From NCBI GenBank assembly GCA_945870205.1, contig CAMBRI010000006.1, positions 1-47,668 on the forward strand: a DNA stretch of 47,668 nt, in the 5' to 3' direction. The stretch comes from Sulfuritalea hydrogenivorans sk43H. GTDB taxonomy: Bacteria > Pseudomonadota > Gammaproteobacteria > Burkholderiales > Rhodocyclaceae. How positions within the stretch are numbered: the first letter of the stretch is position 1; every line of letters begins with the position of its first letter. The notes below the pieces were generated by a model. It was not told the origin of the DNA. It was given only the letters and a program-made list of their open reading frames with translations, and searched no databases. A program made the translations under genes and the position numbers. This document shows positions 24,877 to 43,811 of this stretch, piece after piece.

Positions 24877-26130
24877 ATGTTCACCCCGGAAGCCGGATAC
24901 GAAACCCTGCAGGCATTTGCCACCAGTATCGGCATCGGCTTGCTGATCGGGCTCGAGCGCGAGCGCCAGTCCGACCTCAAGGCCGGATTGCGCACTTTTG
25001 CCCTGGTGGGCCTGCTCGGCTGCCTCAGCGCCTTGCTGGCGCAGATCACCGACAGCGGCTGGATACTCGCCGCCGGCATACTCGCCATCGCCGCCATGAT
25101 GATCGCGGCACACGTGTCGGATCCACTCGATACCGGCGACCCTGGAACCACGTCGGTGGTCGCGCTGATGGTCTGCTACGCTCTGGGTGCCATTGTCTGG
25201 TTTGGCTACACCTCCACGGCCGTCATGCTCGCCATCGCAACCACCGTGCTGCTGTATTTCAAGGCCCAGTTGCATGGCATCTCGAAAAGCATGACGCATA
25301 TAGACTTGCTGTCGATCCTGCAATTCGGCGTGCTGGCGCTGGTGATACTGCCGATCCTGCCCGACCGGGATTTTGGCCCTTACAACGCGCTGAACCCGCA
25401 CAACATCTGGTGGATGGTGGTGCTGATCTCGGGTGTTTCGCTGGCCGGCTACGCCGCACTGCGAGTGATCGGGGCGCAACACGGCGCCGCCTTGATCGGC
25501 CTGTTTGGCGGCCTCGTCTCCTCCACCGCGACCACCATGGTTTTTGCCCGCCACGCGCGTGCCAATGAGGATCTCATCCGCACCGCAATGGTGGTCATCC
25601 TGCTCGCCAACATTGTCGTCATGCTGCGCCTCAGCTTCGTCTCCTTCGCTGTGGCACCAAGCATTGTCGGCCCGCTGTTCAGCGTGCTGGGCGGCGGCAT
25701 CGTGCTCGGTGTTGCCGCCACGTTCTGGGGCTGGCGACAACTCGTAGGCAACGATGCCCTGCCCATGCCAAACGTCACCAATCCGACCGAAATCAAGACG
25801 GCGCTGACATTCGGCGGGCTGTATGCGCTGGTTCTGGTGCTGTGCGCCTGGCTGCAGGATATCGCCGGCAGCCGCGGAATTTATCTGCTGGCGCTAGCCT
25901 CTGGCTTGACCGACGTAGACGCAATAACCCTGTCGTCACTGCGTATGTTCGGCATGGACAAGCTGAGCTCCGAACAAACCGTAACCGCGATAACATTGGC
26001 GACCCTGTCCAACCTCGCCTTCAAGACCGGCCTGGTAATTTCCATTGGCGGTGCGGGGCTGGCCCGCCGTGTCCTGCCGGGTTTGGGCGCCATCGCCGTT
26101 GGCCTCATTGGTGGCCTTTTGCTTATATGA
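24877..26130 (+). CDS. MgtC/DUF4010 inner-membrane protein
   Basis: A 417-residue polytopic membrane protein. The N-terminal part (about 10-150) is MgtC/SapB-like, with SIGIGLLIGLERERQSDL and LRTFALVGLLGCL, and the C-terminal part (about 185-410) is DUF4010, with GLFGGLVSSTATTMVFARHA and LASGLTDVDAITLS. Around a dozen helices are expected. MgtC relatives affect Mg2+ adaptation and ATP synthase, but the role of the DUF4010 fusion is not established. It starts the operon that continues, with a 4-base stop/start overlap, into the metallo-beta-lactamase/cNMP protein. Confidence 0.88.
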   Translation: MFTPEAGYETLQAFATSIGIGLLIGLERERQSDLKAGLRTFALVGLLGCLSALLAQITDSGWILAAGILAIAAMMIAAHVSDPLDTGDPGTTSVVALMVCYALGAIVWFGYTSTAVMLAIATTVLLYFKAQLHGISKSMTHIDLLSILQFGVLALVILPILPDRDFGPYNALNPHNIWWMVVLISGVSLAGYAALRVIGAQHGAALIGLFGGLVSSTATTMVFARHARANEDLIRTAMVVILLANIVVMLRLSFVSFAVAPSIVGPLFSVLGGGIVLGVAATFWGWRQLVGNDALPMPNVTNPTEIKTALTFGGLYALVLVLCAWLQDIAGSRGIYLLALASGLTDVDAITLSSLRMFGMDKLSSEQTVTAITLATLSNLAFKTGLVISIGGAGLARRVLPGLGAIAVGLIGGLLLI

Positions 26131-28388
26131 ACGAAAGTACTGCCATGCTGATACGCAAGCTAGTTGTCGCCAACAGGATCTATTACGTCGAGATTCCGGC
26201 GGCTGGACTGTATCTGCTGTGCGGTGCGCCGGCCGACAGCGTGAAACACCTGCTGCGCCGGGGAATCATCCAGACCACGGAACTTAACGGCGTGACTTTC
26301 GAGAATGGTCCGAATGCCATCTTGCTGTCGGACTCGATGGTGCAGAACGGCCACCTGTGCAACCTGGCGGAGTTTCCCATCCTGCAAATGCTCTATCGCC
26401 AGGGAATGCTGCTGCCGAACCACCCCAACAATACCGGGCGCAAGCCCAAGCTGATCGGTACCCCGGAGCAACTCGCGGCGCAGTTGCGCTACATCCATCG
26501 CGGCAACTACGGCCTGATCTCGGCAGAAGAAATGGTCAAGGCCGGCATCGACGAGCGTGAAGCCGAAGAGCTCATGCGCATCAAACTCAAGTTCGCCTTC
26601 GGCCAGATCGCCCGGCCGGATGCCTTTGTCGACTGCCTGCCGTTGACTACCTGCGCACTGGACGTTGGCGAAGGCGTCAGCATAGAACGCGTGGCGCACA
26701 ATGTCTTCGAAATCCATTACGGTGGTGACTATGTGGAGATCGACCTGAATCTCCGCCTGCACGAAACCTACCCCTGCCCCTACCCCCTTAGCCACGTCGC
26801 CATCGACCGCCATTACTTCGCGGTGGTCCATGCCGGCGACGGAGATGGCTGGGACTACAACCGTCCGGCGATGGGCAGCGTCCTGATCCATCAGGGCCGG
26901 GTCTATCTGATCGATGCCGGCCCCAACATCCACTACAGCCTCGATGCGCTCGGCATAGGCAAGAAGGAAGTTGCGGGCGTCTTCCACACCCATTGCCACG
27001 ACGACCATTTTGCTGGCCTGACCACGCTGCTGCAATGCGACCAGCCGTTGCAATACTTCGCCACGCCGCTGGTGCGCGCTTCAGTGACGCGGAAATTCTG
27101 CGCCCTCCTGTCAATACCCGAATGCGAGTTTTCAAAGTACTTCGACATCCACGACCTGGTCGAAGGAGAGTGGAACGACATCATGGGGCTGGAGGTTCGA
27201 CCGACCATTTCGCCCCACCCGGTGGAAACCACAATTTTCAATTTCCGCGTGCTTTGGGAAGGCGGCTTTCGAACCTACACCCATCTTGCCGATATCGCGT
27301 CCTTCACGGTGCTCGACGCCATGACCCAACCCGATACCGCGGCACTGGGCTTGAGTCCCGAGCGCGCAAAATCCATCAAGGCCGCCTACCTGGAACCCGT
27401 CGATCTCAAGAAGATCGACATCGGTGGCGGCATGATTCACGGCAACGCCGCCGACTTTGCCGCCGATGCATCGACGCGGCTTCTGCTGGCGCACACCGCG
27501 AGGGAACTGACCGACGCCGAACGGCGTATCGGTTCCGGCGCGCCCTTCGGCACCCTGGACGTGATGATTCCGGGACAACAGAACTTCCTGTTGCGCGATG
27601 CCAGCGAATTCCTCAAGAGCTACTTCCCGACGGTGCCCGGGGAGCGCTTGCACATGCTCCTCAATAACCACATCGCCACTTTCAATCCGGAAACCATCAT
27701 CACACCTGCAGGAAAGACGCCACCCGAAATCTACCTGCTGCTCGCCGGCAAGGTCGAAATGCTGACGCAGGATCCCAGCAATTCACATTTCCTTTTCAGC
27801 GGCTCTCTGCTTGCCGAATCTGCCGCGATTTATGACCGCCCCAGCGAGGAAACCTATCGCTCCGTCGGCTTCGTCAAAGCACTGCGTCTGCCCTCCGACC
27901 TCTATCGAAACTTCATCGAACGTTTCTATTCCAGCGCCGAACTGCTTGAGGTTCGCCGGGTAGAGGAAAGGCTGCGGCGCACCTATCTTTTCAGCGACGC
28001 CGTCACCAATATCACCCTGTTTTCACTTGCGAAAAGTTGCACCATCACCGAACTGCACGCCGGCGATGACTTCACCGGAGACCATGAGCAGATGCACCTG
28101 ATCGGCAAGGGGCGAATTTCAAAGGGCGTGGACGAAGGTGCGCCCGTGCTCGGCAAGGGAGAATTCTGGGGCTTTGACAGCCTGTTCAGGGAAATGTCGG
28201 AACGTGCCAAGGATGAGCAAACCCTGGCCGACGTATCGCCGACGGTCATAGCCCTCGACAGTTGCGAAATCTACTCCGTGCCCTTGCGGCTGGTGTCACG
28301 GATTCCGGTGGTGCGCTGGAAACTCTTCGAGGCTTTCCGCAATGCGCACCCCTACGCCGCGCCGCGCTATCGGGGCACCGCCCGCTAA
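26127..28388 (+). CDS. Metallo-beta-lactamase fold protein fused to cyclic-nucleotide-binding domains
   Basis: A 753-residue cytosolic fusion. Residues 1-205 form an N-terminal region I do not recognise. A metallo-beta-lactamase hydrolase domain follows (about 215-520), with the metal motif HxHxDH in HTHCHDDH (287-294), SPHPVETT and THLADIAS. The C-terminal part (about 530-745) contains one or two cNMP-binding folds (PPEIYLLLAGKVEMLTQD; MHLIGKGRISKG and GKGEFWGFDSLF). This suggests an enzyme gated by a cyclic nucleotide, with unknown substrate. ATG 26127 overlaps the upstream stop (ATGA); the open frame extends 285 bases further upstream, but that part lies inside the MgtC gene and is not real. 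The AmmeMemoRadiSam genes follow. Confidence 0.83.
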   Translation: MNESTAMLIRKLVVANRIYYVEIPAAGLYLLCGAPADSVKHLLRRGIIQTTELNGVTFENGPNAILLSDSMVQNGHLCNLAEFPILQMLYRQGMLLPNHPNNTGRKPKLIGTPEQLAAQLRYIHRGNYGLISAEEMVKAGIDEREAEELMRIKLKFAFGQIARPDAFVDCLPLTTCALDVGEGVSIERVAHNVFEIHYGGDYVEIDLNLRLHETYPCPYPLSHVAIDRHYFAVVHAGDGDGWDYNRPAMGSVLIHQGRVYLIDAGPNIHYSLDALGIGKKEVAGVFHTHCHDDHFAGLTTLLQCDQPLQYFATPLVRASVTRKFCALLSIPECEFSKYFDIHDLVEGEWNDIMGLEVRPTISPHPVETTIFNFRVLWEGGFRTYTHLADIASFTVLDAMTQPDTAALGLSPERAKSIKAAYLEPVDLKKIDIGGGMIHGNAADFAADASTRLLLAHTARELTDAERRIGSGAPFGTLDVMIPGQQNFLLRDASEFLKSYFPTVPGERLHMLLNNHIATFNPETIITPAGKTPPEIYLLLAGKVEMLTQDPSNSHFLFSGSLLAESAAIYDRPSEETYRSVGFVKALRLPSDLYRNFIERFYSSAELLEVRRVEERLRRTYLFSDAVTNITLFSLAKSCTITELHAGDDFTGDHEQMHLIGKGRISKGVDEGAPVLGKGEFWGFDSLFREMSERAKDEQTLADVSPTVIALDSCEIYSVPLRLVSRIPVVRWKLFEAFRNAHPYAAPRYRGTAR

Positions 28389-34539: not shown

Positions 34540-35595
34540 ATGAAGAGTTTCAAGTACGCGGTCCTGGTCGTGAGCCTGTCTCTCGGCATCGCGCCGGCCC
34601 TGGCCAAGGACGAGAGCAGTACCCGACCCAGCGAGAAGTATCGGCGCCAGTTGGCGGATGGTGGAATATGTCAGTTCTGCGACCTTCGCTATGAGGATTT
34701 CTCGACGCGCGAGATAACAAAGGCCAATTTGACCGGTGCCTATCTGTTTGGCACCAATTTCTCCTGGTCTGATTTCGGGAACTCGATCTTCGTTTCTGCA
34801 ACGCTGCACCATGCGCGCATGGAATGGGCAAACTTCGACGGCGTCGACTTTTCCAAGGCCTACATCGAGGATGCCTCAATGTTTCGCGGCAGCTTTCGCA
34901 ACGCCAACTTCCGCATGGCGGTGCTCTCGCGTTCAAACATGACGCGTAGCGACTTTAGCGGCGCTGACTTGCTGACCGCGACACTGGAAGACGTGGATCT
35001 CACCGATGCGCGACTCAACAACGCCAACCTGCGCCACGCGAATCTGAGTGGCGCTACCCTGTCCGGCGCGCGCCTGCGCAATGTCGACATGCAGGGTGCC
35101 ACGCTGCGGCGCGCCAACTTCCAGGGCGCCGACCTGAATGGTGCAAACCTCTCCGCGGCGCAAGCGCGTGGCGGCAACTTTGCAAATACTTACCTCGATC
35201 GCGTCAACATGCGCAAGGCCCAGCTCCGCGATGCCGATTTCCGCGGTGCCATCCTCAATGCGGTCAATCTTGAAGGCGCCAATCTCATGGGGGCCGACTT
35301 TACCGGCGCCACCTTGAAAAACGTGACTATGCAGGGCGCCCGTCTGTGCCGCACCAAACTCGCCAATGGCATGGAGGGCGCCTGCTCGGACTCGGATCTC
35401 GCCCTGCTCGCAGCCGAGGATGCCGCCAAGGCCGCCGCGGCCGGACCTGCCACCGAAGCCGCCGCCGCGCCCCCTGAATCTCCGGATCCCGGCGCCGACG
35501 CCTCGGGATCTCCAGTACCTGGTGAGGAGGCGCCGCCCTTGCTTCAGCAAAACTTCCAAAGGCCCGGAGCAAAGAAAAAGGAGATCGCGCTGTGA
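34540..35595 (+). CDS. Exported pentapeptide-repeat protein
   Basis: A 351-residue protein with a signal peptide (VVSLSLGIAPALA) and a pair of cysteines soon after (ICQFCDLRY). From about residue 55 to 275 it consists of pentapeptide repeats of the A(D/N)LXX type (such as ANLTGAYLF, ANLRHANLSGATLSG, ADLNGANLSAAQ), which form a right-handed quadrilateral helix. The C-terminal 70 residues are Ala/Pro/Glu-rich and disordered, ending in a basic AKKKEIAL. Known pentapeptide proteins such as Qnr protect DNA gyrase in the cytosol; export argues against that here. It starts 15 bases after the secretin stop. Confidence 0.88.
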   Translation: MKSFKYAVLVVSLSLGIAPALAKDESSTRPSEKYRRQLADGGICQFCDLRYEDFSTREITKANLTGAYLFGTNFSWSDFGNSIFVSATLHHARMEWANFDGVDFSKAYIEDASMFRGSFRNANFRMAVLSRSNMTRSDFSGADLLTATLEDVDLTDARLNNANLRHANLSGATLSGARLRNVDMQGATLRRANFQGADLNGANLSAAQARGGNFANTYLDRVNMRKAQLRDADFRGAILNAVNLEGANLMGADFTGATLKNVTMQGARLCRTKLANGMEGACSDSDLALLAAEDAAKAAAAGPATEAAAAPPESPDPGADASGSPVPGEEAPPLLQQNFQRPGAKKKEIAL

Positions 35596-36404
35596 TTGCC
35601 TCGCGTTGGCTGTTCATTCTTGTCGCAGCCCTGTCATTCAATGCGCTCGCCCAGTCGGCGGCGCCGAATGCCAATCTCAAATCCGCGCCGCCGGAAGCCG
35701 CCGCAGTTCTGCCGCGAGTGCTTATTGGCGTCCCCTACAACGTCTTTTCCAAGCTTGACCAGGGGCGACCGGTCGGCATCATGCTGGAAACGCTGGATGC
35801 ACTGGTGCAGCAGATGGGCTTCCAGCCCTCCTACATATCGATCCCGCCCTCGGATATGGTGGCAGCGCTCGAATCCGGCCAGATAGACATTGCCTCGGTA
35901 CGCATCCAGTCCGCTCGCAGCAAGGAAAAGTCACACTTTTCCTCGCCCATCGTCACGGAGTTCAACATTCCGATCACCCGCGCCGGCTCGGATGTGAAAA
36001 TTCGCTCGGTCACCGACCTGCAAGGCAAATCAATCGCAGGCCGGATCGGGTTTCATTATCCCGCTCTGGAAAATGTGCCCAATCTGAAGCTCGAGCGCTA
36101 TGACTCTGATGCGGCAATGGTGCGGGCATTGCTACTGAAGAAGGTCGATATCGCCATCATCGCGGGGCTCTCCGATATCTTCATGTTCCGCACCGAGGGT
36201 GTTCTGCGCCAGGTCGAGATATCGGACGCTGCAATCGGCTCCGTACCGCTACGAGTGGCATTCTCGGCCAAGCGTTTCAGCGCCGAGCAGGTAGTGGACT
36301 TCAATAAGCGCCTCGCGGAGTTTCAGCAAGGAGATGATTGGCAAGGGGTCCTCGACCGGAACGGCTTTGCTGACCTGGTAAAGGATTGGCCCTCACTGCA
36401 ATAG
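35592..36404 (+). CDS. Periplasmic solute-binding protein, family 3 type
   Basis: A 270-residue exported protein of the amino-acid-binding (SBP_bac_3) type. After a signal peptide (LFILVAALSFNALA/Q), VLIGVPYNVFSKLDQGRPVGIMLE (in two parts) starts lobe 1 and SDMVAALESGQIDIAS its ligand-site helix; DLQGKSIAGRIGFHYPALE and KVDIAIIAG belong to lobe 2. No transporter permease or ATPase is adjacent, so it may serve as a sensor or accessory of the secretin cluster. The start is GTG at 35592, overlapping the pentapeptide-gene stop (GTGA). The ligand is unknown. Confidence 0.87.
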   Translation: MIASRWLFILVAALSFNALAQSAAPNANLKSAPPEAAAVLPRVLIGVPYNVFSKLDQGRPVGIMLETLDALVQQMGFQPSYISIPPSDMVAALESGQIDIASVRIQSARSKEKSHFSSPIVTEFNIPITRAGSDVKIRSVTDLQGKSIAGRIGFHYPALENVPNLKLERYDSDAAMVRALLLKKVDIAIIAGLSDIFMFRTEGVLRQVEISDAAIGSVPLRVAFSAKRFSAEQVVDFNKRLAEFQQGDDWQGVLDRNGFADLVKDWPSLQ

Positions 36405-36419
36405 GCAAGGAGATCCCGC

Positions 36420-37508
36420 ATGGCGCAACTCACCATCGCACTACAGCGGCTGATTACCACAGCAATTGGAGTTGTGCTGATCGGCGGCTGCGCCTCGACG
36501 CCGCCCACGTCCGCAATTCGTGCATCCGTCGTCGCCGAATCGGTGCTCGACTGCTTTCCCGCAGGTGCTCGAGAAACAGACGGCACGCCATACTTCTGCG
36601 AAGCATCGGCGGTGGTAATTTCAGGTGATCGGGTGCTGGTGGCCAGCGACAAATCGCTGCCCCAGGGTACGCCGCTGATCTCGATGCAGCGCGACGGGTT
36701 TCGCCTTCTCTCGAATACTGTCGAACCGATAAAGGCAGCACTGCCCCAGGCCGCGCGCAAGGTTGAGGGAATGACCCGCAGCCCGGACGGCGGCCGGATT
36801 TTCGCCAGCACGGCCTTCGATCGGTATGACCCCAAGTCCCCGCGCTTCGACACCTTCAATGTCCTCCTGACCTGGCCGGCAAACGCACCCGAACGGGCCC
36901 AGATGATAGCCGGCGAGACGCGCGAGGGCACCATGAGTTCCCTGCCCTTGCGTCGTGCCCTGGAAAAGCATCTGGGGGTCGCCTATTTCAAGGTCGAAGG
37001 CCTGATGGCGCTGCCCGGCAATCGTTTGATTTTCGGTGTGCGCGAGGCCGGCCGCAGCTACTCGGAATTTGCATATCGCATCCAACTCGTGGAAGCCGGC
37101 TATACCGTCGATGCGCAAGGGCGCGTCACCTTGAATCCCGGCATGCGTACCGTGCTCGATTTCAAACCGGACGCCTCGCTCAAACTTCTGGATGGCATCG
37201 GTGTGTCGAGCGTCGAATACGAGCCAACGCGGAATCGGGTCTATTTCACCACCAGCCACGAGACCGACAACAAACTTGGTGCCTACCTCTGGCAAATCGA
37301 TCTGGCCGACCTTGATGCCGGCCGCGCCCCCAAGATCGTTCATGATGCCCAGGGCAATGTGCTGCATTTTGACAACAAGGCCGAAGGCATTGCCATCATT
37401 GACACCAGGCACCTGCTGATCATTCACGATGACGATCGCGTGACCGGGGGCAAACATAACCGCCAGCCGCATCAGGCGGTGTATTCCGTCGTCGAGATTT
37501 TGGACTAG
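36420..37508 (+). CDS. Lipoprotein with propeller-like repeats, unknown function
   Basis: A 362-residue protein. The N terminus (ITTAIGVVLIGGC/A) is a lipoprotein signal with lipobox IGGC, so attachment to the outer or inner membrane is expected. The mature part contains repeated strands such as RVLVASDKSLPQG, KVEGMTRSPDGGRIFAST, FKVEGLMALPGNRLIFGV, YLWQIDLADLDAG and KAEGIAIIDTRHLLIIHDDD. The pattern suggests a beta-propeller with calcium-like acidic loops, perhaps a phytase-like or esterase-like fold; I cannot name a family. It follows the solute-binding gene by 15 bases in the same direction. Confidence 0.7.
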   Translation: MAQLTIALQRLITTAIGVVLIGGCASTPPTSAIRASVVAESVLDCFPAGARETDGTPYFCEASAVVISGDRVLVASDKSLPQGTPLISMQRDGFRLLSNTVEPIKAALPQAARKVEGMTRSPDGGRIFASTAFDRYDPKSPRFDTFNVLLTWPANAPERAQMIAGETREGTMSSLPLRRALEKHLGVAYFKVEGLMALPGNRLIFGVREAGRSYSEFAYRIQLVEAGYTVDAQGRVTLNPGMRTVLDFKPDASLKLLDGIGVSSVEYEPTRNRVYFTTSHETDNKLGAYLWQIDLADLDAGRAPKIVHDAQGNVLHFDNKAEGIAIIDTRHLLIIHDDDRVTGGKHNRQPHQAVYSVVEILD

Positions 37509-39087: not shown

Positions 39088-40074
39088 TCAGCGGATGGTT
39101 ACGATCAACAAGGTAGCCGCTACGTAACCAAAGGCAAGACCGGCGCCCCATCGCGCTGACAGTCGCGCGGCACGGGCCGGTTCGGAAAGAGCTGCCTTGT
39201 GCAGGTAGATGAAGATCATCGTCACGGCAAAGATGAACCCCATGGTCATGTGGTAGAGCTGGTCGCCCATGCCGAATTCATCGGTTTCGGGCAGACTGGT
39301 CGACAGCGAGCCACCGGTGATCGCGGCCATGAATATCGCGGACGTGCTCAGGAAGAAGCGTGTGTCGATCAGATCCGAACTGACGGCGAAACCGGCCAAG
39401 GTCAATGCGGCCGCCAAAAAGAGCATCGAAAAGTATTTGAGAAAATACCCATGCCCGGATCGCTTCAGGTCTATGGCAAAGGTATAGCGCGGAATCCGTG
39501 TTTCAGTATTCTTGGCCAGTGAAACGTCGCCGTAATTGGTTTTGTAGCTCGTCACCGAACCATAACTGTCGAACTGCCCCACGGCCCACCCTGGCACAGT
39601 GATTTTCGAACTGATATTGGTATTGTCCTTGTCGGGCTTGTAGGTCACCACGCGACCGTCGGCCTTGCTGTCCTCAATCTGTATTTTCAGGGCCTGATTG
39701 TCCAATGGATAATGGGCGACATCGAAGTTTCTGAAGATCGTAGCCTCCACATGGGCGGAGGCATAGCGAGTGTCGCCGATTTTCTTCGTGATGACACCGT
39801 CCTTGGCGTCGATGTGACCATTGAATATGCTGAAGGTTTCAACCGGATTGATCTCATCCCCCGTCCACCGAAACCAGATGACAAAATCGACCTGAAACTT
39901 CTTTTCCTTCAAACTGATGGAAGGAATGTTGTTCAGGTAAATCCCGACATCGATGACTTGAGGGGAACTCGTTGCCGAATGTGCCACGGGTGAGAGCCAT
40001 CCCAAAACGAAGGCAAGAAACAAAAACCCTGCCCATGACCATCCTGGTTTGGTCGAGAATAATGTCTTGTTCAT
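39088..40074 (-). CDS. Prokaryotic pentameric ligand-gated ion channel homologue
   Basis: A 328-residue membrane protein of the GLIC/ELIC-like class. A signal peptide (to about 34) precedes a beta-sandwich extracellular domain (about 38-200) with VDFVIWFRWTGDE, the pro-loop-like FDVAHYPLDNQALKIQIED, and PGWAVGQFDSYGS. Four helices follow: M1 about 209-231, M2 238-258 (FFLSTSAIFMAAITGGSLS, pore-lining by position), M3 272-292 and M4 308-327. The Tyr-Pro-x-Asp of the pro-loop is kept. ATG 40074 is chosen over the TTG at 40089; the ribosome site is weak. It is the last gene of a minus-strand set behind a DUF4337 gene and an MscS chimera whose middle domain resembles this one. Confidence 0.82.
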   Translation of the reverse strand: MNKTLFSTKPGWSWAGFLFLAFVLGWLSPVAHSATSSPQVIDVGIYLNNIPSISLKEKKFQVDFVIWFRWTGDEINPVETFSIFNGHIDAKDGVITKKIGDTRYASAHVEATIFRNFDVAHYPLDNQALKIQIEDSKADGRVVTYKPDKDNTNISSKITVPGWAVGQFDSYGSVTSYKTNYGDVSLAKNTETRIPRYTFAIDLKRSGHGYFLKYFSMLFLAAALTLAGFAVSSDLIDTRFFLSTSAIFMAAITGGSLSTSLPETDEFGMGDQLYHMTMGFIFAVTMIFIYLHKAALSEPARAARLSARWGAGLAFGYVAATLLIVTIR

Positions 40075-40125: not shown

Positions 40126-40677
40126 TTAAGGCGCGGCAATTGGAATCCAAAGCCAAATCGCCTGGGTCATCAGAAACGCTCCGATAGCACCGACGACGAC
40201 ACTCGCCTGGAAAAGCCGGTTGCTCACGCTCAAGATGCTCGCCGTCAGCAGCACGATGGCGATTTGAAGCGCGCTACCTGTGTAGGTGTACCAGGGGCTG
40301 CGCTCTTTTGCCGCCGTCCGTTCGGCTTCCAGAGCCCGCGCCTTGGCCATGAGTTCCTTTTTCCCCTCGCCGGTAGCCGGTTCGCTCTCATACCCGGCGG
40401 CCTTCTTCGCATATTTTTCCGCGATCGCCATATTCCCGGCATCCGCAGCCTGCACCGAGGCAATTTCGTAAGCTGTCTGCTTGATGCTCTTGGCTTGAAA
40501 GAAGGCCCAGGTATTGTTTGCGGCAATGGTGTTGTTGAGTATCTTGCTGCTATTTCCCCCACCAACCAGTGTGTTGATCGCAAGCAAAGCGGCCAGAACC
40601 GTAATGGCCCAGCCAGCCTTGTCCTTGATTTGCGCTTCGCGTTCCGAGCGTGAGGGTGTGGTGGGTGCGCTAGCCAT
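40126..40677 (-). CDS. DUF4337-like membrane protein
   Basis: A 183-residue protein with an N-terminal helix (WAITVLAALLAINTLVGGG), a long helical charged middle (YEIASVQAADAGNMAIAEKYAKKA in part, then ELMAKARALEAERTAAK) and two C-terminal helices (ALQIAIVLLTASILSVSNRLF; VVVGAIGAFLMTQAIWLW). The arrangement matches DUF4337, a family of unknown function. ATG 40677 has AAGGA 7-8 bases upstream; the open frame begins seven residues earlier without one. It lies between the MscS chimera and the pLGIC gene, all on the minus strand with gaps of 50-80 bases, so the three are likely co-transcribed and may act together at the membrane. Confidence 0.75.
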   Translation of the reverse strand: MASAPTTPSRSEREAQIKDKAGWAITVLAALLAINTLVGGGNSSKILNNTIAANNTWAFFQAKSIKQTAYEIASVQAADAGNMAIAEKYAKKAAGYESEPATGEGKKELMAKARALEAERTAAKERSPWYTYTGSALQIAIVLLTASILSVSNRLFQASVVVGAIGAFLMTQAIWLWIPIAAP

Positions 40678-40754: not shown

Positions 40755-43562
40755 TTAAGCAGTACCAGCGTCGGATTTCGCATCGACCACCACGATGTCG
40801 TCGGCCTGATCCATCGGCATCAGGGGAATGTTGCGTTCGGCGAATTTCTCCCGCACGTAACGCCACAGTTCCTCGCGGACACGGCCTTTCTTCGGCAGGA
40901 TGGCGACCCGGTAGCCGGCGGAGTATTCGCCAACCCAGCGACCGTTGAGATTGACGACACCGCGGTAGCGCACCATCGGATCGTAGCCGGGGACATCCTT
41001 GCAGACAATTTGCGTCGACTTCGCCACAGCTCCGTTGATGATTTCCAGCACCGTCGCGGGTTCGACATCGGCCGGTGTGTAGAAACGGGTTTCCGCGACG
41101 ATGCCGTGCGGCACCTGGCTGTAGTTTTCGGTCATGGCCTCGGATACCTTCGAGTTGGCCAGACTCACCATCGGACCGTCGTTGGATTCCATTCGGGTCG
41201 TTCGCCAGGTGATGTCAGTGACCTGGCCGATGATGTTGTTGATCTTGATGTAGTCACCGACCTTGAACGGACGCTCGACGTTGAGGATAATCCCCGAAAA
41301 CACGTTGGCGATGTTGGCCTGGATGGCCAGGCCGACCACCATGGCGAGGACGCCCGAGGTTGCCAGCAAACTGGTCAGTGGCTGATTGAATACCACGGCG
41401 ATGATGCCGCCAAAAGCCAGGGCGAAGATCAGCACGGTGACAAAGAACTTCATCACGTTGGGAACCTGGCGCCCGGTCGTGTGTTCCAGCGGTATCCAGC
41501 CGAAGCGGCGCACCGCCATATCCACCAACTGCGCGGCGAGGATCCACCAGAAGGCTTCATAGACCATGACCAGCGTTTGCGTCGAGGACTGCGCCCAGTG
41601 ACCAAAGGCCCAGTCGATGGCCATGTTGCCAACCCCAAGCAACAGGCAGGGCCAGAAAGCCAGGCGCAGCAACCAGGATTGCAGCACCCAGTAGCGCCCC
41701 AGTACCTGCGCGTCGAGAGCCTGGCCGACCATGGCACCGACCAGGCCAAAGATCGCGATATAGAGGAAAAAGGCGTTGGGGATAAAGTCGCGCACGGCAA
41801 CGACTTCGGGGCTCAGCAACACGCCCAGGGTTATTGCCGAGAACAACGGCTGTTCGCCGGTCATGCCGACATACTGCGGTGCGCCATCGCCGCGTTCGCG
41901 CACCAGGTCCTGCGAGATCCACGCATTTTCCACGGCCCAGTCCGAACCGGAACGCAGGATCCGGCGCTGACGCAGGTCGTCCGTCAGGACGCTGCCGGTG
42001 GGCATGCCGAGCACATCGACGACATAGGTCAGGTTGTTGCGGTTGAGCAGGCGGTGGCGGAACGAGATTCCCGCGATGTTCTGGTTGTAGGCGCGCTTGT
42101 CGGCCGTGAAGTTGAGCTTGAACGCCTGCTTGACCCGATAGCGACGGTACTGAACCTCCTCGCTGTCCTTGATCTCTTCGGGCTTGTCGAACTTGACGGG
42201 TTCGACGGCGTTCACGACATCCATGTCCTGCGGGTCGAACTTGCCGCGGTAACGGAACCAGATCGACATGTCGAGAGTCGCCGTTTCCTTCTGCTTGTCG
42301 ATGTTGGAAATCTCGTGCAGGGTCACGCCGACATAGACCACGCTGGTCTTGAACATGAAACGGTCGTTGACATAGAGCACGCGCCCCTGGCGCAGGGCGT
42401 CGATATAGTTGAACCCCGCTCCCTTGGCGATCGGCAGCAACTGAATGGGCGCCGAGATGAGTCGATTGCCGTTGAAGGCACCCATCTGGGTCGGCACCTG
42501 CGCGAGACCATCGACAAAGGACAGATTGCCCATGATTCCGGCAGAAGTTTCCGCCGGCGGCTTGGCGGAAACGGCGTAGTGGGCGGCGTCGTGTGCAACC
42601 GTGGCAACCCAGTCGGGCGACGTGGAGAAACTGCGCTGGTATGCCGACTGAAAACGCTGCGCACGCTCGTTGGCGGTATCGAACAACACCGGCGTGGCGA
42701 CGATGATGCCGTGATTCTGCACTTCGGCATCCTTGCCGGCGAGTTTCTTCAGCGCTTGGGAGAACTCGCCGGTAGCCAGCGCCGAGGGCCCGAACAGATC
42801 AAGCGCATTGCCTGTGCCACGGATCGAATGGACCAGGCGGGCCGCCAGTTCCGGGCGGGTTGCAATGTAGATGGCACCGACGTCGATGTCCTTCACCGCT
42901 GCGATGATTTCCTTTTGCTTGGCTTCGTTGCCACCCGCCGGAAGCGTCCAGACCTGTTTTACCGGCGTATCGAAACGTTGATAGACGTCGACCAGCGGAT
43001 CGACCAGCGCATCAAATTCGGCCCCCTCCTCGCGTATCACATACATCAAGCGACGCTGCTGGATGTTGCGCGCATAGTTGGCGGCGAATCGGGATTCTTC
43101 GAGCGGATCGACCCCCAGGGACACGACACCGGGCAAGGGTGCAGCCAGTTGCAACGGCGTTACCACGCGCAGTTTGGCCTTTTCGTACTGCGGCGCCGCT
43201 TGCTTGAGCAGGCCGGCATCAAGATAGCCGACGACTCCGATGACGCGCTTGTCGGCCATTACCTTGGCCGGCGCGTCCGCGCCCTCTTCCACCACCATGA
43301 GTTCCACGCGCCGCCCGCTGATGCCACCATCACGTGCGAGTTGATCCAGGAAGAGCTGCGCCCCTTTTTGCATGGCCATACCGGTCGGCGACTTGGTCGG
43401 AACCACCAGCGCCAGTCTTGGCCTTGTCTCGAGATTGTCTTCAACCAGAGTGAACCGGGCCACGGCGGAAAGCACGGCACTGACGACCACGATCACGATC
43501 ATGATCAGCCAGAACACTCGCCACTTTGCCTTGCCTTGCAGCAGTTGGATAACTTTGCTCAT
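40755..43562 (-). CDS. Chimeric channel: periplasmic-binding domain, pLGIC-like domain and MscS pore
   Basis: A 935-residue inner-membrane protein. An N-terminal helix (15-36) anchors it. Residues about 48-400 look like a type I periplasmic-binding domain (LALVVPTKSPTGMAMQKGAQ, ISGRRVELMVVEEGA, VIGVVGYLDA). Residues about 405-570 resemble the extracellular domain of pLGICs (VVYVGVTLHEISN, TATLDMSIWFRYRG, and DWAVENAWIS aligning with GWAVGQFDSY of the gene at 39088). About 575-730 carries several helices, then the MscS core (GVLAMVVGLAIQANIANVFSG, NVERPFKVGDYIKI, DITWRTTRM) and cytosolic domain. ATG 43562 is the first Met of the frame. The layout implies ligand-controlled MscS gating, which is inference. 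It heads the three-gene set. Confidence 0.85.
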   Translation of the reverse strand: MSKVIQLLQGKAKWRVFWLIMIVIVVVSAVLSAVARFTLVEDNLETRPRLALVVPTKSPTGMAMQKGAQLFLDQLARDGGISGRRVELMVVEEGADAPAKVMADKRVIGVVGYLDAGLLKQAAPQYEKAKLRVVTPLQLAAPLPGVVSLGVDPLEESRFAANYARNIQQRRLMYVIREEGAEFDALVDPLVDVYQRFDTPVKQVWTLPAGGNEAKQKEIIAAVKDIDVGAIYIATRPELAARLVHSIRGTGNALDLFGPSALATGEFSQALKKLAGKDAEVQNHGIIVATPVLFDTANERAQRFQSAYQRSFSTSPDWVATVAHDAAHYAVSAKPPAETSAGIMGNLSFVDGLAQVPTQMGAFNGNRLISAPIQLLPIAKGAGFNYIDALRQGRVLYVNDRFMFKTSVVYVGVTLHEISNIDKQKETATLDMSIWFRYRGKFDPQDMDVVNAVEPVKFDKPEEIKDSEEVQYRRYRVKQAFKLNFTADKRAYNQNIAGISFRHRLLNRNNLTYVVDVLGMPTGSVLTDDLRQRRILRSGSDWAVENAWISQDLVRERGDGAPQYVGMTGEQPLFSAITLGVLLSPEVVAVRDFIPNAFFLYIAIFGLVGAMVGQALDAQVLGRYWVLQSWLLRLAFWPCLLLGVGNMAIDWAFGHWAQSSTQTLVMVYEAFWWILAAQLVDMAVRRFGWIPLEHTTGRQVPNVMKFFVTVLIFALAFGGIIAVVFNQPLTSLLATSGVLAMVVGLAIQANIANVFSGIILNVERPFKVGDYIKINNIIGQVTDITWRTTRMESNDGPMVSLANSKVSEAMTENYSQVPHGIVAETRFYTPADVEPATVLEIINGAVAKSTQIVCKDVPGYDPMVRYRGVVNLNGRWVGEYSAGYRVAILPKKGRVREELWRYVREKFAERNIPLMPMDQADDIVVVDAKSDAGTA

Positions 43563-43639
43563 GATTGCCTCGTTTTTGCCAGGATGATGGTCGTGGGGAA
43601 AGTGCTGCTAAATTTCATGCGGAGCTCGGGACCCCTGAT

Positions 43640-43789
43640 GATGAAACACGCGAAAGGCGGCTTAAAGGCCCGCCCCTCCCATCCTCCAATCGCAAACGTC
43701 GCATGCGACCTTCCCCTCGCGGGGAGGCTTCTAATTGGCTCGCTGCGCTTGTTTATCACCAGTCGCTTCGGAATAGTTGTTTCACGTTA
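43640..43789 (-). repeat. Intergenic repeat element, copy 2
   Basis: About 150 bases matching 19158-19283 in order and orientation, with an extra stretch of about 27 bases (43688-43714) that contains the palindrome GTCGCATGCGAC. The core folds on the minus strand as CCTCCCC-GCGA-GGGGAAGG, again with a GNRA-type loop. It lies between the MscS chimera (start 43562) and the stop of the large surface protein (43812). Confidence 0.7.
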
Positions 43790-43811
43790 AAGAGCGGAAC
43801 GAAATGCATGA

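Follow-up and report, generated by a model that had tools for sequence, protein, structure and literature searches.

What kind of protein results when a periplasmic receptor domain and a domain reminiscent of neurotransmitter receptors are placed in front of a mechanosensitive-type pore? This question is raised by P0001, a protein of 935 residues encoded in a stretch of 47,668 nucleotides of Sulfuritalea hydrogenivorans sk43H (contig CAMBRI010000006.1, positions 1–47,668; hereafter the window). An earlier note, made from the sequence alone, divided the protein into a type I periplasmic-binding protein (PBP) domain (residues 48–400), a domain resembling the extracellular domain (ECD) of pentameric ligand-gated ion channels (pLGICs; residues 405–570) and an MscS core. 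As set out below, we consider it probable, at roughly 60%, that P0001 is a ligand-operated channel with a pore of the MscS/bCNG type.

P0001 is present once in the window's genome (4.4 Mb in 391 contigs). Full-length orthologues of 92–93% identity exist in two genomes of the same genus (L030 and L031) and one of 63% in another genus of the family (L025); in total, a full-length match was found in four genomes, its own included, when 150 relatives were searched. Differences from the two same-genus orthologues are concentrated at the third codon position (50/31/286 and 50/30/280 differences at positions 1/2/3, respectively). Given closely similar full-length orthologues and this codon pattern, P0001 is, as judged from sequence comparison, a functional coding gene under purifying selection. 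A long open reading frame on the opposite strand (41010–43790) was taken as a shadow of it. That P0001 might be an assembly-error chimera or a dying fusion gene, for which the 391 contigs of the assembly could be cited, has a negligible probability: apart from the purifying selection, the same architecture recurs in many genera, including the single-contig genomes G552 and G910 and complete Azospirillum plasmids, which refutes an assembly chimera for the family.

The two outer parts of the protein were recognised directly. Pfam assigned Peripla_BP_6 to residues 59–333 (6.5e-13) and MS_channel_2nd to residues 751–815 (3.9e-19), with no match at residues 400–570. Together with matches in the PDB (branched-chain amino-acid binding proteins 4gnr and 3hut for the former, YnaI and MscS for the latter, taken as residues 690–830; Table 1), these results bear out the proposed PBP domain and an MscS core with pore helix and beta domain. 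Hydropathy revealed a single N-terminal hydrophobic segment and, after the middle domain, ~5 hydrophobic helices, an arrangement that would make the PBP and middle domains periplasmic and the C-terminus cytoplasmic. An AlphaFold2 model of the full-length protein, computed with the two 93% orthologues, reached a pLDDT of 31 and a pTM of 0.21; helix positions alone were compared from it (they match hydropathy), the rest being unusable. For practical purposes, the three-part architecture is certain. Membership of the MscS superfamily is defined, in passages of PMC4560390, by homology to the ~90-residue pore-lining helix and upper vestibule; P0001 shows this homology (MS_channel_2nd 3.9e-19; MscS and YnaI in the PDB at ~1e-12) and belongs, by sequence, to that superfamily.

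Several lines of comparison tie the middle domain to the ECD of true pLGICs. By BLASTP, residues 408–466 of P0001 align to residues 45–97 of P0002, a plain pLGIC encoded in the same window (32%, E 2e-4). Comparison by hhalign of a P0001-type ECD profile (five rows) with a P0002-type profile (three rows) yielded E 9.1e-8 over 120 columns. With larger sets, 61 MscS-fused ECDs matched eight plain pLGIC ECDs at E 9.7e-23 over 187 columns, compared to 0.045 to 0.76 in 20 column-shuffled controls, and 17 ECDs of pLGICs that carry a PBP domain (PBP-pLGICs) at E 4e-55. The P0001 clade alone (three rows) matched plain pLGICs at 2e-10 and PBP-pLGICs at 3.3e-29. Of the limits initially suggested for the domain, the start at residue 405 holds, and the end at 570 falls short: the last strand lies beyond it and the alignment carries the ECD to ~588.

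Profile A2, built from five MscS-fused ECDs only (four PBP-ECD-MscS proteins and the globin-bearing protein of L026), matched 13 of the 369 genomes searched in the class; the 21 listed rows corresponded to 18 proteins, none of them unrelated. These comprised nine PBP-ECD-MscS proteins (six with a cyclic-nucleotide domain), an ECD-MscS-cyclic-nucleotide protein without PBP (L066), an ECD remnant with MscS at a contig edge (L067), three PBP-ECD-pLGICs (L061, L063, L064; ECDs at 1e-29, 3.7e-21 and 4.1e-20 in the set), three plain pLGICs (L069, L070 and P0002, the last at E 5.1e-5, calculated per single genome) and a short ECD-only protein (L068, classed by reading alone). The bridging proteins L061, L063, L069 and L070 are, on sequence evidence, pLGICs, because they match solved pLGIC structures: L063 matches GLIC (1.1e-6), L061 a GABA-A chimera (4.1e-8, mostly in the pore), and L069 and L070 match GLIC chimeras over both ECD and pore (5.4e-16 and 4.4e-14). 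The Pfam channel domain was seen slightly below cut-off in L063 and L064, and at E 0.01 not in L061, L069 or L070. PDB sequence searches with the MscS-only ECD profiles returned no pLGIC, and the sequence link therefore depends on the bridging proteins.

As a fold search only, residues 392–590 were modelled with AlphaFold2 from P0001 and two orthologues of 94–96%, with no pLGIC rows in the alignment. The model is weak (pLDDT 50, pTM 0.53). Even so, ELIC, GLIC, 5-HT3A, AChBP or glycine-binding protein filled 49 of the 50 rows listed by Foldseek against the PDB, with a best match at E 5.3e-3 (TM 0.38) and none at 1e-3; rank 12 was a phage protein. Could the middle region instead be a spacer of immunoglobulin-like type without kinship to pLGICs, or belong to the PBP fold as a subdomain? 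Such a reading would accommodate the missing Pfam match at 400–570 and the failure of the MscS-only profiles to reach a pLGIC among PDB sequences. It is nevertheless highly improbable and was rejected: profile comparison with pLGIC ECDs strongly disfavours it, the fold search points the same way, and the domain occurs without a PBP in L026, L066, P0002, L069 and L070, placing it outside the PBP fold. By these comparisons, residues ~405–590 of P0001 form a complete domain homologous to the pLGIC ECD.

In pLGICs, the Pro-loop of the ECD docks on the M2–M3 loop. Among proteins with a pLGIC pore, all 25 have the Pro-loop proline, compared to 8 of 61 with an MscS pore; the motif [YF]PxD is present in 24 of 25 vs. 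none of 61 (the Fisher values of 4.5e-15 and 2.0e-20 ignore kinship among rows and are not used as proof). P0001 itself has alanine (residue 491) in the proline column. Complete loss of the proline, as a first set had suggested (0 of 12 bar one ambiguous row), was dropped for strong depletion in view of the larger set. Other positions are common to the two pore groups, with W435, F436, R437, D516, W542 and G560 (P0001 numbering) kept in at least 76% of both. PMC4795631 describes the proline as absolutely conserved in the pLGIC (Pro-loop receptor) superfamily. Its depletion would fit an ECD that no longer docks on a pLGIC M2–M3 loop. Neur_chan_memb was not matched by Pfam in P0001 at E 1, and the MscS core stands in its place. 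Because the M1–M4 channel domain and the Pro-loop proline are both absent, P0001 is best placed outside the pLGIC superfamily, despite carrying its ECD.

The earlier note also suggested a search for proteins with the same domain order, and many relatives were found. In the family to which G432 belongs, a mixed ECD profile matched 32 of 42 genomes (with up to at least 17 matches per genome, in G525); across the phylum, it matched 43 of 398. From the listed matches of both searches, 60 regions were picked by hand, so that the class counts given here are not frequencies. The 71 ECD proteins classified with home-made profiles and 19 earlier ones formed a set of 90, which leaves out the same-genus orthologues (L030, L031) and the contig-edge protein (L067). 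It contains 59 PBP-ECD-MscS proteins (P0001 counted), 23 of them with a cyclic-nucleotide domain; two ECD-MscS proteins without PBP, one with a cyclic-nucleotide domain (L066) and one with a globin (L026); 17 PBP-ECD-pLGICs; eight plain ECD-pLGICs; one ECD-only protein; and three outside all classes (L168–L170; Pfam Cache domains in the two scanned). Pfam detected PBP and MscS domains in 12 of the 13 PBP-ECD-MscS proteins scanned (P0001, L025, members of L055–L060, L062, L065, L163, L171); in the other, L154, which has a short N-terminus, it found no PBP, and this protein was counted by home-made profile. Five of the 17 PBP-pLGICs were scanned likewise, revealing the channel domain in L063, L064 and L133 and, at E 0.01, not in L061 or L155; the remaining 12 were classed by home-made profile. 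Matches to the ECD over 97–99% at 37–40% identity were obtained in nine plasmid records of Azospirillum. Home-made profiles found PBP, ECD and MscS in frames of A. brasilense Sp 7 and A. argentinense Az39 as well as in AZL_RS21910 of Azospirillum sp. B510, a gene whose annotation reads only ABC transporter substrate-binding protein and which probably encodes an ion channel.

Some members of the set vary the theme. Four genomes of family f82 (G525, G528, G540, G543) had 13 to 17 ECD matches each, some of which are pieces of one gene; this would amount to a large expansion of PBP/ECD receptor channels. At eight loci (L136, L137, L140, L142, L144, L145, L146, L149), chosen partly for side-by-side matches, a gene without the cyclic-nucleotide domain is followed on the same strand by one with it (in L146, the first gene is shortened and the gap is ~700 bases), and such tandem genes may form mixed channels. 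The protein of L026 (11398–13620, plus strand, 740 aa) combines a pLGIC-type ECD and an MscS core with a C-terminal globin (Pfam 5.4e-11) and is possibly a gas- or heme-sensing MscS channel; among the best-matching open-access titles and abstracts, no globin-MscS protein of this kind was found. In L133 (1981–5547, plus strand), a PBP-ECD-pLGIC is extended at its C-terminus by a second solute-binding domain (SBP_bac_1, 3.1e-37). The ECD-only protein L068 (4856–5494, minus strand, 212 aa) has a single hydrophobic segment, at its N-terminus, along with a pLGIC ECD whose Pro-loop is intact, and is without channel helices.

How did one sensor come to stand on two pores? Across 58 MscS rows and 17 pLGIC rows, a common consensus extends over the PBP–ECD linker and the first part of the ECD. 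Because separate fusions would hardly give such a shared linker consensus, the PBP–ECD pair has, by this evidence, been inherited as a single module, found in relatives on a genuine pLGIC pore. In a PBP tree (75 rows, quick method; L154 left out for its short N-terminus), the pore label needs four changes, compared to a mean of 15.6 after shuffling, and starred branches force one; a single pore exchange is therefore compatible with the tree. The simplest reading is that the PBP–ECD receptor changed its pore at least once, in a direction that the tree does not set, which suggests that evolution exchanged the pores of two channel families, MscS-type and pLGIC. On the pore side, a tree of MscS cores (78 rows, quick method, with long-branch warnings) grouped the 59 PBP-linked cores together (support 96). 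It set these, the two PBP-less ECD-MscS proteins, 13 MscS proteins with a cyclic-nucleotide domain and one plain MscS apart from three other MscS proteins (97), the 17 ECD-less rows being 15 chosen as best P0001 matches and the other two matches in its own genome. As this tree groups it with cyclic-nucleotide-domain MscS proteins, the P0001 pore is classed here as bCNG-like.

Taken as a ligand-operated channel, P0001 would work as follows. A periplasmic small molecule would close the PBP domain; its movement would reach the membrane helices by way of the ECD, which, with its degenerate Pro-loop, would have become a coupling domain suited to a pore of another kind; and the helices would open or close the MscS-type pore. 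Ion or osmolyte flux would in this way come under the control of an external chemical. The channel may act with, or beside, the plain pLGIC P0002 of its operon. For the family at large, we hold the odds to be evenly balanced that there is a widespread class of chemoreceptor channels in which PBP and pLGIC ECD gate a heptameric MscS/bCNG-type pore. The pores of two unrelated superfamilies would then have been swapped beneath one and the same conserved sensor; the ECD would form a seven-fold ring or meet the pore with mismatched symmetry, and members with cyclic-nucleotide or globin domains would read inside and outside signals simultaneously.

A number of observations weigh against the ligand-operated reading. 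Besides the low confidence of both structure models, the modest Foldseek scores, the missing direct link to PDB pLGICs and the eight MscS-fused ECDs that do have the Pro-loop proline, P0001 has no cyclic-nucleotide domain by Pfam, and symmetry is a difficulty: pLGIC ECDs work as pentamers, MscS as heptamers. The PBP domain adds another. Of the 58 MscS rows, 43 retain a GHxxS segment, which we take to be part of the amino-acid pocket, as do 13 of the 17 pLGIC rows; P0001, L025, L171 and 12 others among the 58 lack it. Having diverged here, the PBP of P0001 may bind nothing or something else. Because the amino-acid-binder segment of most relatives is absent in P0001 and its two nearest lineages, no ligand is predicted. 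As for the partnership with P0002, L025 keeps the outer genes of the locus and is without the DUF4337 gene, the pLGIC gene and gene 36420–37508, and none of the 60 fetched regions (4.6–19.5 kb) held both an MscS-type and a pLGIC-type ECD protein; the pairing seen in the P0001 operon is therefore not general.

Alternatively, the MscS part might open by tension as E. coli MscS does, with PBP and ECD tuning the threshold or sensing periplasmic crowding. In favour of such a safety valve, the pore helix and beta domain are of canonical form and match those of YnaI and MscS. We regard it as unlikely, since 13 of the 15 best plain MscS matches of P0001 in the tree carry cyclic-nucleotide domains, and a conserved sensor of >500 residues would be much for mere tuning; moreover, passages of PMC4560390 report superfamily members in which mechanosensitivity has not been observed.

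The genes around P0001 bear on a further possibility. P0002 lies two genes downstream on the same strand, in an apparent operon with the intervening DUF4337 membrane protein P0003 (Table 1); its Neur_chan_LBD match (1.4e-4) is under the Pfam cut-off. L030 and L031 keep the order PBP-ECD-MscS, DUF4337, pLGIC. The YDG/MBG-repeat protein lies upstream there too, and the opposite strand encodes a pentapeptide-repeat protein, a stand-alone type II PBP (PBP-II) of the SBP_bac_3 kind and a TPR-secretin protein. The MscS part of P0001 might be an anchor or assembly platform of a non-conducting receptor that signals to P0003 or P0002, e.g. by ECD–ECD contact. Conservation of the operon in three same-genus genomes would suit this, as would the homology of the P0001 and P0002 ECDs, which could co-assemble. 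Still, we think it distinctly unlikely: the pore region (591–830) is well kept, with 226 of 240 positions identical to L031 and 166 of 240 to L025, and neither L025 nor any of the 60 fetched regions offers the pairing. Retention of the operon in two further same-genus genomes is counted in favour of the ligand-operated reading as well. In L025, the reading frame replacing the DUF4337 and pLGIC genes and gene 36420–37508 looks like a candidate 5′-nucleotidase.

Table 1. Features of P0001 and its neighbourhood, in window positions.
Feature	Position	Strand	Evidence or remark
P0001, PBP-ECD-MscS protein, 935 aa	40755..43562	-	Open reading frame; 92-93% orthologues with synonymous excess
N-terminal membrane anchor or signal, P0001 residues 12-41	43440..43529	-	Hydropathy peak 2.96 at 9-42
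Type I periplasmic-binding domain and linker, P0001 residues 44-390	42393..43433	-	Peripla_BP_6 6.5e-13; PDB 4gnr 4.3e-9, 3hut 1.3e-8
pLGIC-type ECD, P0001 residues 405-590	41793..42350	-	BLASTP, profile comparisons, alignment, fold search
Pro-loop position, P0001 residues 490-495; canonical YPxD absent	42078..42095	-	Alignment columns
Membrane helices before MscS core, P0001 residues ~594-686	41505..41783	-	Hydropathy; low-confidence full-length model agrees on helix positions
MscS core (pore helices and upper beta domain), P0001 residues 702-815	41118..41459	-	MS_channel_2nd 3.9e-19; PDB YnaI 6.7e-13, MscS 1.2e-12
P0003, DUF4337 membrane protein, between P0001 and P0002 genes	40126..40677	-	Pfam 2e-28; kept in L030 and L031
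P0002, plain pLGIC (ECD and membrane domain), Pro-loop YPLDNQ intact	39088..40074 (open from 40089)	-	PDB GABA-A pi 3.9e-10, ELIC 2e-7
Large YDG/MBG-repeat protein, upstream of P0001	43812..47393	-	Pfam YDG 2.4e-14, MBG_2 7.9e-11
Stand-alone PBP-II protein (SBP_bac_3), conserved neighbour	35592..36404	+	Pfam 3.6e-10; kept in L025, L030, L031

Part of this architecture has a precedent. Bacterial relatives of Cys-loop receptors that join PBP-I, ligand-binding domain and four transmembrane helices were described in 2004, and pLGIC genes adjoining PBP-II genes were already noted there (Tasneem et al., passages of PMC549065). These fusions resemble P0001 in the N-terminal PBP-I on a pLGIC ligand-binding domain, in the shared linker and in nearby PBP-II genes, but end in the four-helix pLGIC pore, whereas P0001 ends in an MscS pore. 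A word search found neither "MscS" nor "mechanosensitive" in the text of PMC549065, PMC4795631 or PMC12664993, and no pLGIC ECD on an MscS pore appeared among the best-matching open-access titles and abstracts, a scope outside which most subscription papers and preprints fall. PBP-pLGIC fusions are hence already known, and within that scope the MscS-pore version was not found.

Parts of P0001 also have relatives among other known channels and binding proteins. The bCNG channels have the nearest pore sequences in the genomes searched, and 23 of the 59 PBP-ECD-MscS proteins share their cyclic-nucleotide domain; plain bCNG-like proteins in the MscS-core tree are ~480–530 aa long and without PBP or ECD, while P0001 is without their C-terminal domain. 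E. coli MscS and YnaI likewise share the pore helix and upper beta domain with P0001 and have neither PBP nor ECD. MscS has three membrane helices per subunit, and its superfamily counts 15 subfamilies, some with ligand-binding domains (passages of PMC4560390). ELIC, GLIC and DeCLIC belong to the same ECD family, but have a pentameric M1–M4 pore and a conserved Pro-loop, neither of which is present in P0001; DeCLIC, too, has an added N-terminal domain (passages of PMC12664993). Branched-chain amino-acid binding proteins share the PBP fold family (Peripla_BP_6), but are soluble transport partners, with a GHxxS that P0001 has not kept. In the laboratory, chimeras that take ECD and pore from different pLGICs serve as tools (e.g. 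the GLIC–glycine-receptor chimera 4x5t). Nature appears to have gone further, by joining a pLGIC ECD to a pore from a superfamily that differs in subunit number and by keeping the result in many lineages. Several questions thereby become testable: how an ECD might transmit its signal without its Pro-loop partner, whether it can assemble into a heptamer, and whether external chemicals can open pores of the MscS family.

Other genes of the neighbourhood are listed as minor observations. The YDG/MBG-repeat protein upstream of P0001 would be of the surface type, and a partial homologue (33–42% of its length) adjoins in L025, L030 and L031. Elsewhere in the window, a frame of 848 aa (25842–28388, plus strand) has metallo-beta-lactamase-fold and cyclic-nucleotide-binding matches. 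Genes resembling type I secretion components (ABC exporter, HlyD or TolC type; usually a single gene per locus) were noticed near PBP-ECD-MscS genes at 7 of 14 loci (L172, L174, L175, L177, L179, L191, L192), a count based on some scanned neighbours per locus and without a background rate. In Azospirillum sp. B510, a giant protein with VCBS domains also lies near the PBP-ECD-MscS gene, as the MBG/YDG protein does in the window.

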